A program made the position numbers and the translations under genes. 64,000 bases of DNA from Marinobacter subterrani. Lineage in GTDB: Bacteria > Pseudomonadota > Gammaproteobacteria > Pseudomonadales > Oleiphilaceae. Each line of letters starts with the position of its first letter. The first letter of the stretch is position 1. The stretch is taken from NCBI RefSeq assembly GCF_001045555.1, contig NZ_LFBU01000001.1, forward strand, positions 2,356,001-2,420,000. Reading direction: 5' to 3'. Shown piece by piece: positions 3,001 to 41,478 of this stretch. The notes under the pieces were generated by a model. It ran no database searches. It worked only from the letters and a program-made list of their open reading frames with translations, and was not told where the DNA came from.

Positions 3001-6000
3001 AAAGCCCGCTCCGAATCGCTCAGGCTGTACTCGAAGTCCGCATCGTAGGCATCGGTAACGATGTTGCCTTCAGCATCCCGGCTCAGGCCGCGCAACTGCC
3101 AGTAGCGGTTGTACCGGGCCTCACCGGCAGTCACTAATGCCTGTTTCTGCTGCTCCAGCGAGGCTTCGGCACCCGCACCCAGCAGGTTCATATCGTTCCA
3201 GAGGTTGAGCAACTCATCCGCCCGGCGCTCGTCACGAACGTCGTTGGTGTTCACATCCACCAGATCGCCATCAGCGACCGCAACAGTCACATCACCGCCG
3301 CCCTGGATCTGCCAGACGTTCAGGTCACCACTGGTTTCCCGCACGCCCACGTCCTGCTGGGCGTTGATAATCACCCGGCCGTCCTGCGCCACACCGCTGT
3401 TGAGGCCCAGCATCGCGCCGGCCGCGCCAACCGAACCCTGGCGGGCGGTGAGTACGAGATCGTTACCCTGCACCAGCGCACTGGCATTCAAGGCGAGTAT
3501 GCCGTTCTGGGAGCTCAGGTTTACGCCACCATTGCCAGTGGTCACTGCGTCCACCCGCAGATCGCCCCGGATGCCGTCAATCGAGACATCACCGGCCACG
3601 GTGGATGCATCCAGGCCTCCATTACCAACGGCAACAGACAGCGGGCCCGGGCCACCGATGCCGCTTGTGGCCTCCAGCTCAAGCCGATCCGCGTCAATCA
3701 GTACATCGGAGTTGCTGGCCGTGATGCTGCCGTTGGAGGTATCCAGGCGGATTCGGCCCGCGGCATTGCGAAGGTCGCCCGAGAGCCGGAGGTCGGCATC
3801 GGTGCTCACATCCAGGTCGCCGGCATCGAAGCCGATGAAGTTGATGGCAATGTCTTTGTCCGCGTCGGCAACATTACGGGTGATCTCGAAGGCGCCCCGG
3901 GTCGAGCTTTGCTTCTGCCAGTAGCGCACTTCAAGGCACACAATGAAGTGAGCCTCACAGGTCGTCCAGGTCTGTGGCTCAGAGAATACCGGGTCATCAA
4001 TGCTGAAATCCTCAGTGCCCGGCGTTGCATTGAAGCCCACGTACTCGGCATTTTCCATGGGGTTGGCATCGCCAGAGGGCAACCAGCCGGTATCCGAGCT
4101 GATAGTACCGCTACCGCTGTCGATGAAGCCGATGGCAGTATCCGAATAGCGCGTCACGGTGCGGGTCTCAGAGAACTCCTGCCCTTCCAGCCAGACAAAA
4201 TCCAGCCCTTCGCTCGGAGAGTAGCTGGCCGACCGGGTGTTGCTCCGGGTTTCGTCCAGATAGGCGCTGCTGCGCTCAATCTCATCAGAGCGGCCACGGT
4301 AGACCTGCACATCATCACCAACGCGGGTGTAGATCGTGCTGTTGAGGACGGTAGTCTCGGATGCCGTGCCCCGGTTAAGCAGGTCGGTGTCATTGATGCG
4401 CAGCACGCCTTCAATGTCATCGCCCAGGCTGATGTCGGAGAGCTGCAGGGCCTTGCCGGTGGTGTTGTTGATCTTCACCCGGCCATAGCCGTCGAGGACG
4501 TTGATCTGGCCGTTGCCGGTACTCATGATCTCACCGGTCAGCTCCATGTAGCCGCCGGCTACGTCCACCTCGTCCAGCAGGATCCGGTCGGCCTTGGCAT
4601 CGTAGCGGTAGCCGATAATGCCATCGCTCGGGTCGGAATCCGTGATGCGCACAATTTGTTCGCCCACATTGTCCCTGTAGTTATCGCGCGCGTCGTCCAT
4701 CGCGGCTTTCGCGGCGTCATCAATGGTCACTTGCCAGTCGGCGATGCCTGACTGCACGGTGCCATTGATGTTCAGATAGCGGGCACTGGCCACCAGGTTG
4801 TTGCCGGCAATGTAGTTGCCCGGGTCGTAGCCTTCGGCATTGAAGTCGGCACCCCGTGGGTCGTTGCCGACGTGGCGGAAGGCGTCGATATAGCTGAGCA
4901 GGATATCCGCACCGGCACCAATATCGAGGGAGTTGCCGCGGATATCCGCCTGGATGTACAGACTGCCCTTGGTACTTTCCAGATCGACACTGCCGCCCAG
5001 GTTGAGGATATCGCCCTGCACAAAAATGTCTGTTGGCAAAAGTCCAGCGAACGGAGAGTTTACGGAATCGGAACGATCACTGAGATCCGGCAGCGTTACG
5101 TCGGACGGGTTAAAGGTATTGGCGACCGTAATCGATGGTGCCGGCGAGTTGGCACCACTGACGACGCTGCTGAATCCGGCACTGCCATGATCGCCGCTGT
5201 TCAGCGCCCCGATGTCAGAGGCACTGGACACCAGTGAACCGTTGAGGGTGATATCACCCACCGCATCGTTGGGAATTTCCAGCCCTTCCAGGCGGAGGAA
5301 CGCAGGCGTCGGGTTATCGATGGTGATACTGGCATCGCCGGGGGCATCCAGTACGCCACTGCCGACCAGGGCATCGCCGGTGACGCTGATGTTGCCGCCA
5401 CGGGCAATCACCGGGTCCACTTCCACGATCTTGATGGGCAGATCCCGGGGTGCGAACAGTTTACCGTCCTTGACGATATCCTCCCGCGCGTAGCCTAGCT
5501 CATCCACGAAGAATCCGATCAGCGCTTCTTTCAGCAGATTGATTTCCGCCTGGAAGGCTCGTTTCTCGGTTTCCGAGGCCGCGTACTCCGCCTGCATCGC
5601 ATACAGTTCGTCAATCCGCTCGGTAATGGTCTGGTTGTAGCTGCCGTCGACAACGCGGTAGGAAATGCCGTCGGTTTTCTGCACTTCCTCGATCACTACC
5701 TGGTCGGTGTCGGGGTCAAAACGATAACCGAGTTCCAGAATTTCCTTGTTGTGCACGCCGGCTTTGAGGGCGCCGTTTACGGTGACGACCTCGTTGGAGG
5801 TACGGTGGGTATCGCCGGAGATGGTCTTCAGTGACACCTCCTCGGCACCCACCAGGTCGGCCAGGCCATTCACTATGCCTTCAACAGCCTGCTTTGCCAG
5901 ATCCGTTGCCGTGCCACGGGCGGTGAGGTCCTGATTGCCCGGGCGGGCATTGATGAAAATGTCGCGAACGCCATGCACTTCACTGCCAGAGGCAATGGTC

Positions 6001-16754: not shown

Positions 16755-17537
16755 TTAATCATGGCCGAGCCAGAGGGCAGTCAACGCCGCACGACTGCGC
16801 ACATTGAACTTTCGGTAAAGGGTAACCACGTATTGGTGGGTGGTGTTCTGGCGCTGGTTGAGCTCGCTGGCAATTTCCTTTTCCGACATCCCCGTCAACA
16901 GGCAGGAGAGAATATTCCGCTCGGTAGGCGTCAGCGGCTCACCCGCCACCAGAACCCCAAAGCTCAGCAGCACCTGCCGGAAATACCAGACCAGTGAGCG
17001 AAGTGCGAACTCGGCGACCTCCAGGTCCTCCTTCGTATAGGAGGGAGCGTCCCCCAGCCGGTGCAGAGCGACGTATACTTCGCTGTCCTCATTGACAGGC
17101 GCAACCACAAACAGGGTGTCTGAAATCCCGCGTTCCCGGTAGAACTTCCGATAATGCTCACTATCAAAAAACTCCTCCGTGACATGATCACGAATCAGCG
17201 TGGCGCGGAAACGCCCGGCATTGCGGATGTGATTCAGGGAACTCTGGTCGGGTTCGCCATTGTTCATGGCACGGGCCGCCACCCGGTAAAGCTTCCGGTC
17301 GGCTTCGGTCCCATTGAAATAGAACATCGGCCCGGCCCGCCAGCCTTGCATGGGATCGTTTTCTGGCCTGTTGCTCAAGCGCATGGCAGAGAGAACATAG
17401 CCTCCGCCGGCATTAACCATTCTGGCAAGGCGCTCCATCAGGTGCTGCAGGGATGCTTCCGCCTTGGAGGCAGGAAAGGTGGATAGCTCATCCCACAGAT
17501 CGTAGATCGCTTCTCGGGTCTTGACATCGATGTTCAT
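16755..17537 (-). CDS. LuxR-family transcriptional regulator
   Basis: 260 residues. The C-terminal part (about 200-258) is a LuxR/FixJ-type helix-turn-helix: LTPTERNILSCLLTGMSEKE, then a recognition helix and RSRAALTALWL. The N-terminal 190 residues do not show a receiver domain (no Asp phospho-acceptor context), and I do not recognise an acyl-homoserine-lactone pocket. They may be a sensory domain of unknown ligand. The gene lies upstream of the giant adhesin on the same strand with a 220-base gap containing a perfect palindrome, so it may control adhesin expression. That link is inferred from position only. Confidence 0.8.
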   Translation of the reverse strand: MNIDVKTREAIYDLWDELSTFPASKAEASLQHLMERLARMVNAGGGYVLSAMRLSNRPENDPMQGWRAGPMFYFNGTEADRKLYRVAARAMNNGEPDQSSLNHIRNAGRFRATLIRDHVTEEFFDSEHYRKFYRERGISDTLFVVAPVNEDSEVYVALHRLGDAPSYTKEDLEVAEFALRSLVWYFRQVLLSFGVLVAGEPLTPTERNILSCLLTGMSEKEIASELNQRQNTTHQYVVTLYRKFNVRSRAALTALWLGHD

Positions 17538-17803
17538 CGCGCGCCCTGTCAGTAACAGTTGGTCTCGGGAGACCCGATTATTTAACTTTTGTCAAAAAGA
17601 AGAAAAAGTAGGAAATCCGGCAATAAGAATCAAGTTTGTTGGAGCTCTCCTCTGAGACACTCACTCATTGTTCTCAGCGGTCGTTTGCCAACCGCCCCGC
17701 TGCTCCGATTGCCAGACCATGGGTGGGAGCGGTGCCGACCTTTGGGGTGAGCGTGAGAGTGAACCCAGGTTCATTCTGGCAGCTGCTGAAATGCTTACAA
17801 ACC

Positions 17804-17870
17804 TGTAAGACATATCGCACAAAGCCCGGAGCGATTCTCCGATAGGTACGAATTCAATCCCCAGTAAAAT
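17804..17870 (+). promoter_or_regulatory. GacA-like upstream site and -10 box of the Rsm-type RNA
   Basis: TGTAAG-N6-CGCACA at 17804-17821 matches the known GacA/UvrY upstream site (TGTAAG-N6-CTTACA) fully in its left half and in 4 of 6 positions in its right half. A TAAAAT -10 box lies at 17865-17870 with no good -35 box, as expected of an activated promoter. Transcription would begin near 17877, putting the site at about -73 to -56, in the range described for rsmY/rsmZ promoters in Pseudomonas. Confidence 0.6.
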
Positions 17871-17877
17871 GGTCATT

Positions 17878-18066
17878 GTCAGGGATGACAAGCCAGCAAG
17901 GAACGTTGGCTCAAGGATGAGAACTCCACGGATCAGGAGTTGCCCGAGGGATCAGGGCTTACAGGGATGGCAACAAGGATGACGCGCTCAGGATGAGTCG
18001 CACGCCTGACGGAACGGGCAGGGGTCAGCCACGGAATTTGGGATCACACGGAACGTGGTCCCGTCC
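17878..18066 (+). ncRNA. CsrB/RsmZ-family CsrA/RsmA-sequestering small RNA
   Basis: About 190 nt holding 13 GGA triplets. Many are exposed in short hairpin loops: GTCA[GGGA]TGAC at 17878-17889; GCCAGC[AAGGAAC]GTTGGC at 17892-17910; CTCA[AGGA]TGAG at 17910-17921; AACTCC[ACGGATCA]GGAGTT at 17922-17941; GCCC[GAGGGATCA]GGGC at 17942-17958; CTCA[GGA]TGAG at 17987-17997; GGGATCAC[ACGGAAC]GTGGTCCC at 18040-18062. Repeated A(N)GGA loops are the binding sites of CsrA/RsmA in CsrB, RsmY and RsmZ RNAs. The opposite strand shows only scattered GGA, so the plus strand is the RNA. No protein frame fits. The 3' end is uncertain because the last hairpin is not followed by a T-run. It should titrate CsrA/RsmA under Gac control. 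Confidence 0.8.
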
Positions 18067-18178
18067 GTGCACTTCTACCGCTCACCGCACATTTCTGCTC
18101 TCCCCCAACATTTCGCTCCTGCTGCTTTGCGCCCTGGCACAACACCAATAACGCAAATTAGCCTCAGGAGCTTATACC

Positions 18179-18448
18179 ATGAAACGCACGCCCCTCTTAG
18201 CCACCCTCGTTCTGCTGTTCAGCCTGGTGACCGGTTTTGCCTACGCGCAAGATGTCGCCGTCAATATCAACACCGCCGATGTAGCCACCCTCGCAAGCCT
18301 GAACGGCATTGGCCAGAGCAAAGCCGAAGCCATCGTCGCCTATCGGGAAGCGAACGGTCCTTTTGCGGTAACCGCAGACCTGGCGAACGTGAAAGGCATT
18401 GGCGAGCGGACCATTGAGAAGAACGCAGAGCGCCTGACCGTCAAGTAA
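18179..18448 (+). CDS. ComEA-family helix-hairpin-helix DNA-binding protein
   Basis: 89 residues. A signal peptide (about 1-23, ending AYA) is followed by the ComEA signature VNINTADVATLASLNGIGQS and a second helix-hairpin-helix half, LANVKGIGERTIEKN. The length fits the short single-domain ComEA-like proteins of gammaproteobacteria. These bind DNA in the periplasm and in some species act in DNA uptake. Natural competence is not shown here. An AGGAG ribosome site precedes the ATG. The leader region lies directly downstream of the Rsm-type RNA, so read-through from that promoter is possible. Confidence 0.85.
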   Translation: MKRTPLLATLVLLFSLVTGFAYAQDVAVNINTADVATLASLNGIGQSKAEAIVAYREANGPFAVTADLANVKGIGERTIEKNAERLTVK

Positions 18449-18488: not shown

Positions 18489-19304
18489 CTAGTGACGAGC
18501 TCGGAAAAGATACTCTTCTGGTGACATATCGTTACCAACTGCATCGCGAATAGCAAGATCGATCCGGTCGCTGCTCAGGTCATGTAACCCGCAATTGGCC
18601 AGAGCCTTTCGGACAACGACATTCTGCCCAAGGTATTCGTAGAGCACCCTGGCGCAACAGGGCATTCGCTCGCTGTTGTCGGAAACCCCTATCTTAAGCC
18701 CCGTCAACCGGGTAACCCGGTTACGAAAACTGGGAAAGAGAATAGTCTGCGTAATCTCGTGCCGGTTGAGTGTTTCATAATCCACCAGGAACAGCCGGTC
18801 CGTCAGCAAATAAGCGATACCCTGATACCGATTGTGGCATGGCGGCTCATTGCTGGTCGCCCGCATTCGTTCCGTACGCTGAAAAACCACCCGGTTGCCT
18901 CGGCGCTCCAGACACACCAGATTCTGAAGCACCTTCCCGGGCGCCGACATGGACTGGTAGTACTCGTAGTAGTATCCCAGGTAACTATCAATATCCCCCC
19001 GAGCGTCATGATCAAGTCGATCAAGGTGCTCCTGGACGGAATCCTCGCCCTGGCTTGGCTGGGCCTTGATCTTCGGGCGTACATCCACGATGCGTCGGAA
19101 CTGGCCGTGCGGCAGAAGAATTTCCTGCTCTTCCACACCAAAAAACTCGCACATGCGGCGCAGTGTATTCGCCGAGGGCTTGTGCTGGCCGCCCAGGTAT
19201 CTGTTGAATTGCGGTCGATTGATCCCAAGGCGGCGGCAAACCTCCGCAATGGACTTGTAGTAGCTGCAAAGCAGCCTGAGATTCTGAGCCAGGTCCTGAT
19301 GCAT
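18489..19304 (-). CDS. XRE-family helix-turn-helix transcriptional regulator
   Basis: 271 residues. The N-terminal 65 residues form a Cro/CI-type helix-turn-helix (SIAEVCRRLGINRPQFNRYL, then an NTLRRMCEFFGV helix). The remaining 200 residues are a putative effector domain I do not recognise by name. The gene is divergent from the sodium:amino-acid symporter, with a 178-base shared upstream region, so control of that transporter and the aspartase/asparaginase genes behind it is a reasonable guess. Confidence 0.75.
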   Translation of the reverse strand: MHQDLAQNLRLLCSYYKSIAEVCRRLGINRPQFNRYLGGQHKPSANTLRRMCEFFGVEEQEILLPHGQFRRIVDVRPKIKAQPSQGEDSVQEHLDRLDHDARGDIDSYLGYYYEYYQSMSAPGKVLQNLVCLERRGNRVVFQRTERMRATSNEPPCHNRYQGIAYLLTDRLFLVDYETLNRHEITQTILFPSFRNRVTRLTGLKIGVSDNSERMPCCARVLYEYLGQNVVVRKALANCGLHDLSSDRIDLAIRDAVGNDMSPEEYLFRARH

Positions 19305-40413: not shown

Positions 40414-41478
40414 TTACTTGACCTTGGGGTCCAGCTCGCCAGAAGCGTAACGCTCGAACATACGCTCAAGGTTAACCGGCTTGATCTTGCTGGCATTGCC
40501 GGCACAGCCGAAGGCCTCGTAGCGTGCGATGCACACCTCGGTCATGGCCTTCATGGTTTCCTTGAGGAATTTCCGCGGGTCGAACTCGGCCGGGTTTTCG
40601 GCCAGGAAGCGACGGACCGCGCCAGTGCTGGCCAAACGCAGGTCGGTGTCGATGTTGACCTTGCGCACGCCGTGCTTGATGCCCTCTACAATTTCCTCGA
40701 CCGGTACGCCGTAGGTTTCCGGGATCTCACCACCGTATTCGTTGATGATCTTCAGCCACTCCTGGGGTACGGAGCTGGAGCCGTGCATGACCAGGTGGGT
40801 GTCCGGGATGCGGGCGTGGATGGCTTTGATCTGGTCGATGGCCAGGATGTCGCCTGTGGGCGGGCGGGTAAACTTGTAAGCGCCGTGGCTGGTGCCGATG
40901 GCGATGGCCAGGGCGTCCACGTGGGTTTTCTTGACGAAATCCGCCGCTTCTTCGGGATCGGTCAGCATCTGGCTGTGGTCCAGAGTGCCTTCGGCGCCGA
41001 TGCCGTCTTCTTCACCGGCCTGGCCGGTTTCCAGGGAACCCAGGCAGCCCAACTCGCCTTCCACGGAGACACCGCAGGCGTGGGCCATTTCAACGGTGCG
41101 ACGGGTCACGTCGACGTTGTATTCGTAGTCGGTGGGGGTTTTACCATCTTCACCGAGGGAGCCGTCCATCATCACGGAGCTGAAGCCCAACTGGATGGAG
41201 CGCTGGCACACGGAGGGGCTGGTGCCATGGTCCTGGTGCATGACCACCGGGATGTGCGGGAATTCTTCGATGGCCGCCAGGATCAGATGGCGCAGGAAGG
41301 GAGCGCCGGCATATTTACGAGCACCGGCGGAGGCCTGGACAATCACCGGGGAGTCGGTTTTGTCGGCGGCTTCCATGATGGCGCGCATCTGTTCCAGGTT
41401 GTTGACGTTAAAGGCTGGCACACCGTAACCATGCTCGGCGGCGTGATCCAGCATTTGCCGCATCGAAATCAGGGCCAT
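40414..41478 (-). CDS. fba: Class II fructose-1,6-bisphosphate aldolase
   Basis: 354 residues. Zinc and substrate motifs: [52 protein letters not shown] and [10 protein letters not shown]. This is the longer class II type found in many proteobacteria. It cleaves fructose-1,6-bisphosphate to triose phosphates, or runs in reverse in gluconeogenesis. It is the last gene of the tkt-epd-pgk-fba set and is separated from pgk by a nested hairpin element. Confidence 0.95.

Follow-up and report, generated by a model that had tools for sequence, protein, structure and literature searches.

A predicted CsrB/RsmZ-type small RNA upstream of comEA in the genus Marinobacter

In E. coli, the CsrB and CsrC RNAs bind CsrA through repeated CAGGA-type sites located in their hairpin loops (PMC7652899). 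The Pseudomonas RNAs RsmX, RsmY, and RsmZ present several GGA triplets outside base pairs and have a palindromic UAS as a potential GacA site (PMC2375449). The UAS in P. fluorescens SS101 reads TGTAAGCATTCTCTTACA for rsmY and TGTAAGCATTCGCTTACT for rsmZ (PMC4353343). The Alteromonas macleodii Te101 RNAs Aln1a-c are described as analogs of CsrB/C whose A(N)GGA motifs are single-stranded (PMC5864184).

The Marinobacter locus considered here shares features with each of these systems. As in E. coli CsrB/CsrC, GGA sites are arrayed in hairpin loops, whereas the predicted sRNA is only about 197 nt long with 13 GGA, compared with the 369 nt over which E. coli csrB is annotated, and lacks a match to the Rfam CsrB family. 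With Pseudomonas RsmX/RsmY/RsmZ the Marinobacter sRNA has in common that several of its GGA are unpaired, that a palindromic UAS precedes it, that the genome is predicted to encode more than one RNA of this kind, and that GacA and CsrA/RsmA are present. In contrast to the Pseudomonas Rsm RNAs, it is without an Rfam match in a genome from which RF00166 is absent, adjoins comEA, is without an intrinsic terminator, and has a UAS of the form TGTRRGANATNTCKCACA. Aln1a-c are likewise marine gammaproteobacterial CsrB/C analogs, a likeness drawn from their description only; unlike the Marinobacter locus, they are three RNAs from one intergenic region.

Marinobacter is a widespread marine genus whose members degrade hydrocarbons and form biofilms. 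A predictor of CsrB RNAs, CSRNA_FIND, is reportedly due to Kulkarni and co-workers. The accessible parts of the open-access literature searched for Marinobacter contained no description of its Csr/Gac RNAs. One paper reports that csrA is upregulated in Marinobacter sp. C18, and the terms 'small RNA', 'sRNA', and 'GacA' are absent from its text (PMC10516948).

The locus is located in a 64-kb stretch of a Marinobacter genome (assembly of 4.45 Mb in two contigs); this whole stretch is called the window, and positions refer to it. Segment 17877-18073 of the forward strand is, judged from sequence, almost certainly a Marinobacter sRNA of about 195 nt with many CsrA docking sites, and the locus as a whole very probably specifies a GacA-activated, CsrA-sequestering sRNA analogous to CsrB/RsmZ. 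The support for this as the best explanation comes from sequence comparison, which shows motif density, common hairpins, conserved promoter architecture, near-universal presence in the genus sample, and partner genes. All sequence-level traits of the CsrB/RsmZ type (motifs, hairpins, UAS, partner genes) were found with the exception of the terminator. The functional type is a known one, and by the searches made this RNA is a member of none of the Rfam families tested. What is unusual is that the locus lacks an intrinsic terminator, that comEA is its constant neighbour, and that the genome has a second predicted RNA. The sRNA is non-coding in appearance since the length differences within alignment A1 are non-multiples of three, and no open reading frame of at least 60 aa overlaps 17892-18054. 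A preliminary description had already read the locus as a candidate Gac-controlled CsrB/RsmZ-type sRNA, and the sequence comparisons support it through GGA retention, covariation, conservation of the UAS, the -10 box and their spacing, and occurrence in 121 of 124 genomes. Its particulars also held: thirteen GGA were counted in 17877-18066, seven lie in hairpin loops by our reading of the structure, in agreement with the at least six described, and the TGTAAG-N6-CGCACA site and -10 box are in place, with the UAS ending 56 nt before the predicted 5' end. The features are collected in Table 1.

Table 1. Features of the predicted sRNA locus and of the second GGA-rich RNA; positions are those of the window except in the last line
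Feature	Position	Strand	Remarks
Gac-type UAS, TGTAAG-ACATAT-CGCACA	17804..17821	+	Putative; genus form approximately TGTRRGANATNTCKCACA
-10-like box, TAAAAT	17865..17870	+	Read directly; TAGAAT in most relatives listed
CsrB/RsmZ-type sRNA, predicted	17877..18073	+	About 197 nt; ends approximate; from conservation, covariance model, covariation
Hairpin 1, loop GGGA	17877..17890	+	Helix 1, 89.1% of cells paired; 0 pairs changed on both sides
Hairpin 2, loop AAGGAAC	17891..17911	+	Helix 2, 96.9% paired; 1 pair changed on both sides
Hairpin, loop ACGGATCA	17922..17941	+	Helix 3, 94.7% paired; 2 pairs changed on both sides
Hairpin, loop GAGGGATCA	17942..17958	+	Helices 4 and 5, about 95% paired; 2 pairs changed on both sides
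Single-stranded segment bearing a pair of SELEX-like CsrA sites, ACAGGGATGG and ACAAGGATGA	17959..17983	+	Putative sites
Hairpin, loop GGA at 17991	17984..18001	+	Helix 6, weakest, 81.0% paired; 2 pairs changed on both sides
Hairpin of CCUGA-[N]GGA-UCAGG type	18004..18019	+	Helix 7, 94.3% paired; 1 pair changed on both sides
3' two-part hairpin, apical-loop GGA, no U-run after it	18030..18069	+	Helices 8/9, 99.6%/98.6% paired
C-rich, G-poor spacer	18074..18148	+	Candidate Rho-utilisation region; C 0.44, G 0.13 in the window
comEA-like helix-hairpin-helix protein	18179..18448	+	PF12836 HHH_3; TIGR00426 above cut-off
Second GGA-rich RNA, predicted	L196:1688-1916		14 GGA and 11 ANGGA over 1686-1917; U-run intrinsic terminator

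Conservation was followed in 53 aligned sequences, consisting of the window and 52 Marinobacter comEA loci (53 of the 80 comEA loci retained were from Marinobacter, the closest at 96% identity, and L048, in which a contig end cuts the locus, was left out). Mean column identity reaches 83% in 17877-18073; the spacer 18074-18160 has 54%, and segment 17751-17790 has 48%. The conserved block stops at the 3' hairpin. The structural alignment A1 comprises 41 of the 53 sequences, twelve of unusual length or duplicate being omitted (L037, L049, L053, L055, L061, L064, L065, L066, L074, L075, L082, and L083).

By DNA search the region was detected in 31 of 37 genomes of the same genus, the source genome among them, and in none of 21 others, making 31 of 58 in all. 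The covariance model R1, built from A1 and carrying the RNAalifold structure, matched 121 of 124 genus genomes, some of these hits arising by construction because the model was built from genus sequences. All 110 of the genus genomes with a completeness of 90% or more and a contamination of 5% or less were matched, and the three R1-negative genomes are 62-82% complete. The best R1 hits of six genomes scored below 45 bits; all six have comEA downstream and 12-14 GGA per 190 nt, and two of these loci (L234 and L236) have no UAS of 9/12. In an order-level sample of 145 genomes, searched with stricter filters by which distant homologs may be missed, seven model matches were obtained, five of them in the genus. 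The two outside it (L141 and L142) were taken as chance hits, the DNA of both reading as protein-coding and that of L141 as a tandem repeat. The plasmid collection gave no model match. Genome G206 contains two strong sRNA copies (L229 and L230), and each copy is preceded by a separate UAS and followed by a separate comEA. In genome G011, equally scoring copies are present near both ends of one contig (G011:C1:8514-8710 and 3709331-3709527) and probably represent an unresolved overlap of a circular assembly.

The structure was drawn as local hairpins read off the window and the consensus. In the 41 sequences of A1, the 45 drawn pairs have 94.4% of cells paired, and changes on both sides occur in 13 pairs and 40 cells. 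When the structure was slid by 1-3 columns, only 26-37% of cells were paired and 2-7 pairs changed on both sides, a control in which the drawn structure is favoured, having been drawn from the tested sequences themselves. None of 500 shuffles, which keep sequence relatedness, came as high on any of five structure measures. The strongest covariation is seen in the 3' hairpin 18030-18069 (helices 8 and 9), with five pairs changed on both sides. The RNAalifold consensus joins distant segments, and 7 of its 37 pairs covary versus 13 of 45 in the drawn structure; the latter is carried by a further model, R2. The single sequence folds only moderately better than its shuffles, with a z of -1.99 and 5 of 200 shuffles doing equally well or better.

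In the drawn structure common to the relatives, 10 of the 13 GGA are unpaired, the seven in hairpin loops among them. Loss of the GGA loops in relatives that keep the neighbouring genes, which the preliminary description had named as contrary evidence, is the opposite of what was observed: the hairpins covary, and GGA triplets have a mean retention of 0.86 (0.60 to 1.00) in 40 relatives compared with 0.57 for other triplets. Conservation of the loops upstream of comEA-like genes, which it had proposed to look for in related genomes, was likewise borne out, with GGA retained and comEA a constant neighbour. The GGA at 17977 and at 18011 (helix 7 hairpin) are retained in 100% of relatives, those at 17883 (hairpin 1) and 17965 in 98% and 92%, and those at 17930 (helix 3 hairpin) and 17900 (hairpin 2) in 68% and, at exact columns, 60%.

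Within the window, 17804-17821 is the best match to TGTAAG-N6-CTTACA at 10/12, the half CGCACA differing from CTTACA at two positions. Across the 53 aligned sequences, mean column identity is 89% in the UAS, 62% in the interval between the UAS and the -10, and 92% in 17864-17870. In all 47 aligned sequences with a UAS score of 9/12 or more, the UAS ends 56 nt ahead of the 5' motif. A UAS of at least 8/12 is present in 51 of 53 sequences, and of the four at 8/12, three have the 56-nt distance and L081 has 58 nt; L067 and L082 are unscored since the expression for the 5' motif found no match there. The re-measurement on loci fetched with the model took in 41, of which 31 were read and 10 had no match to the 5' motif expression. 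The 31 readable loci all have a UAS of at least 8/12 (26 of them at least 9/12), and the best UAS is at 56 nt in 29, the exceptions being L229 with 55 nt and L188, whose listed best is at 77 nt. With up to two mismatches, the UAS occurs at 34 places in the genome versus 57 for the reversed control; a match by itself is not rare, and the evidential weight of the UAS comes from conservation and fixed spacing. Similarly, a 9/12 match was found in 9 of 28 non-Marinobacter 800-nt regions upstream of comEA, and as such a match within 800 nt is not rare, the fixed position is what counts. A sigma-70 scan of 17540-18200 returned no passing -35/-10 pair. Just before the UAS, an extra half-site GCTTACA is present at 17793-17809, facing away from TGTAAG (CTTACA-N4-TGTAAG) and retained in the 60% consensus of the 53 sequences; it may provide another contact for GacA.

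The genus form of the UAS, which was derived from relatives of the first RNA, proved more selective than the classic one, as the genome contains two perfect matches to it and 0 to its reversed control. The second site (G000:C1 3037625-3037642) is upstream of a GGA-rich stretch, and thus the genus form led to a second predicted RNA between a VanZ-like reading frame, just under the Pfam cut-off, and mnmH. The second RNA resembles the first in its UAS form, GGA richness, and genus-wide occurrence; unlike the first, it has a U-run terminator, mnmH as its neighbour, and a UAS that ends about 169 nt upstream. A 451-nt query around it found matches in 120 of the 124 genomes of the genus and in 107 of the 110 high-quality ones, with only a short piece in G026, G222, and G244 and a weak match in G210 (E 0.003). 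Thirty loci were examined, the best-scoring of the 120 matching genomes and hence leaning to close relatives. The 25 readable ones each have 14-15 GGA and a genus-form UAS, 24 of them with the terminator, and GGA triplets are retained at 0.99 versus 0.70 for others. The start pattern failed in five of the thirty and the terminator pattern in one more; these failures do not count as absence of the features. The second RNA has no Rfam match beyond chance hits, and model R2 of the first RNA gave no match to it in L196 at E <=1. R1 weakly hits the second-RNA locus in one genome, G001 (19.8 bits), and a remote kinship of the two RNAs is therefore possible. When the source genome was searched for DNA paralogs, it returned the locus itself and four chance-level pieces (E 0.77-5). 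The other 33 places with a classic UAS at up to two mismatches were rejected as sRNA sites, none having an ANGGA array like that of the window (at most 3 ANGGA and 8 GGA per 150 nt versus 8 and 11). Two genus-form sites with one mismatch (L197 and L198) have no GGA array and were set aside as well.

The partner genes of a Csr/Gac system are encoded in the genome. CsrA is encoded twice, one copy being named CsrA by NCBIfam. The GacA ortholog is 55% identical to E. coli UvrY and scores 300.8 with the NCBIfam UvrY/SirA/GacA model, above the cut-off of 280; by our reading uvrC is directly downstream of its gene, as in E. coli. A BarA/GacS-like hybrid kinase is 38% identical to BarA over residues 2-907 of 918; its score of 832.6 is below the BarA equivalog cut-off of 890, and it is still the best BarA-like hit. 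In the proposed mechanism, the GacS/BarA-type kinase would phosphorylate GacA, and phosphorylated GacA would bind the palindrome 17804-17821 and turn on transcription from about 17877. The resulting RNA of about 195 nt would display about ten GGA sites and titrate CsrA dimers off mRNAs, by which CsrA repression would be relieved. From these features we infer transcription of the sRNA, GacA binding at the palindrome, CsrA titration, and the resulting phenotypes; the sRNA probably sequesters CsrA once a two-component sensor system turns it on. Two GGA-rich RNA families in nearly every genus genome examined, neither with an Rfam match, would offer a handle on a global switch of Marinobacter and would be additions to RNA libraries. 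Moreover, the putative genus-specific GacA site could be used to find further regulon members.

The 3' end of the sRNA and its downstream neighbour give rise to the main alternative. An intrinsic terminator at the 3' end is usual for CsrB/RsmZ-type sRNAs and is not essential. After the 3' hairpin of the window no intrinsic terminator was found, the only terminator-like sites of the scan being upstream at 17561-17577, and the relatives show no consistent U-run there. C is at least twice G in the spacer of 39 of 53 sequences, compared with 204 of 8588 tiled 75-mers from the same loci, a composition such as a Rho-utilisation site would be expected to have. With an intrinsic terminator lacking, the 3' end probably arises either by processing or through the action of Rho in the C-rich spacer. 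The product of the comEA-like gene scores below the cut-off of the comE subfamily model. In each of 29 R1-matched loci and each of 12 further stretches, this gene follows the sRNA on the same strand; comEA is the neighbour for which constancy was followed. As comEA is constantly downstream and no sigma-70-type promoter was detected in 17540-18200, read-through into comEA is possible. The flanking genes are a divergent LuxR-type (GerE) regulator at 16755-17537 (-) and a helix-turn-helix protein at 18489-19304 (-).

These observations bear on the reading that the element is mainly a structured 5' leader of comEA. Transcription from 17877 would then continue into comEA, and CsrA bound to the GGA motifs would act in cis on translation of comEA or on Rho termination, the RNA not being a free sponge. 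This reading is unlikely. It is favoured by comEA coming next in the sRNA direction at every one of the 41 loci and by the missing intrinsic terminator, and the C-rich spacer recalls the CsrA/Rho control of pgaA (PMC7652899). The negative promoter scan also points this way and says little about comEA, because the same scan misses the sRNA's own -10. On the contrary, conservation drops to 54% past the 3' hairpin, the length of the spacer differs among relatives, ten unpaired sites would be more than cis control is known to need, and the second RNA of the same design has a terminator. The comEA-leader and free-sponge readings are not mutually exclusive. Quite improbably, both would be combined in a dual-function RNA, the nascent transcript being at once CsrA sponge and comEA leader, with CsrA occupancy deciding between Rho termination and read-through. 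Rho termination in the C-rich spacer would then release a free sponge, transcription would otherwise read through into comEA, and the terminated RNA near mnmH would be a pure sponge. If true, a gene for DNA uptake would be coupled directly to a stationary-phase or Gac signal.

Apart from comEA, the CsrA-sequestering reading has to be weighed against the outcome of the Rfam searches. None of 4227 families matched the 64-kb window at gathering, and at E <=10 segment 17540-18190 gave no csr/rsm family and only a chance hit to an unrelated lncRNA. The csr/rsm families in Rfam include CsrB, CsrC, RsmX/Y, PrrB_RsmZ, and TwoAYGGAY. A whole-genome search for RF00166 found none at E 0.001. The covariance check suggested in the preliminary description was therefore negative at both thresholds, and with it no kinship to the described csr/rsm families was detected. 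It is highly improbable that CsrA has no part in the locus and that a conserved structured element, of RNA or DNA, keeps its GGA for some other reason, such as another RNA-binding protein or target pairing via GGGGTCAGCCACGG. The missing csr/rsm match would fit such an element, and so would the nearly invariant, partly single-stranded segment at about 18020-18035; the ANGGA in loops, SELEX-like ACARGGAUG sites, Gac-type UAS, and the CsrA and GacA genes of the genome stand against it. The two unpaired sites ACAGGGATGG and ACAAGGATGA resemble the CsrA SELEX consensus RUACARGGAUGU (PMC7652899). Segment GGGGTCAGCCACGG (18020-18035) is almost invariant in the 41 sequences, with much of it unpaired, and could serve target pairing or RNA turnover.

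The 13 GGA in the 190 nt of 17877-18066, 10 of them ANGGA, make this the densest 190-nt forward-strand stretch of the 64-kb window (mean 2.95, sd 1.84). It is not set apart by this count alone, because the runner-up on the forward strand reaches 12 GGA and the reverse-strand maximum is 11. Chance GGA richness in a purine-rich intergenic stretch without any gene, which could appeal to the 193 of 20000 dinucleotide-preserving shuffles of the region that reach 13 GGA and to other window stretches with 10-12, is next to impossible, since 10 ANGGA were reached in only 1 of 20000 such shuffles and since the conservation data, with covariation, a conserved block, and genus-wide presence, already contradict it. 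In the 800 nt before comEA, the densest 190 nt hold 8-15 GGA in 52 Marinobacter regions, those of L033 and L061 being located farther upstream; the same scan gave 1-9 GGA in 28 other organisms.

Further GGA-dense stretches in the window are 41150-41339 (+) with 12 and 5416-5605 (-) with 11 GGA per 190 nt. Over all 53 aligned sequences, the GGA count of the sRNA ranges from 8 to 20. Its length also varies by species, from 138-141 nt in L053, L061, L064, and L074 to 244-295 nt in L055, L065, and L075, as if GGA hairpin modules had been gained and lost.
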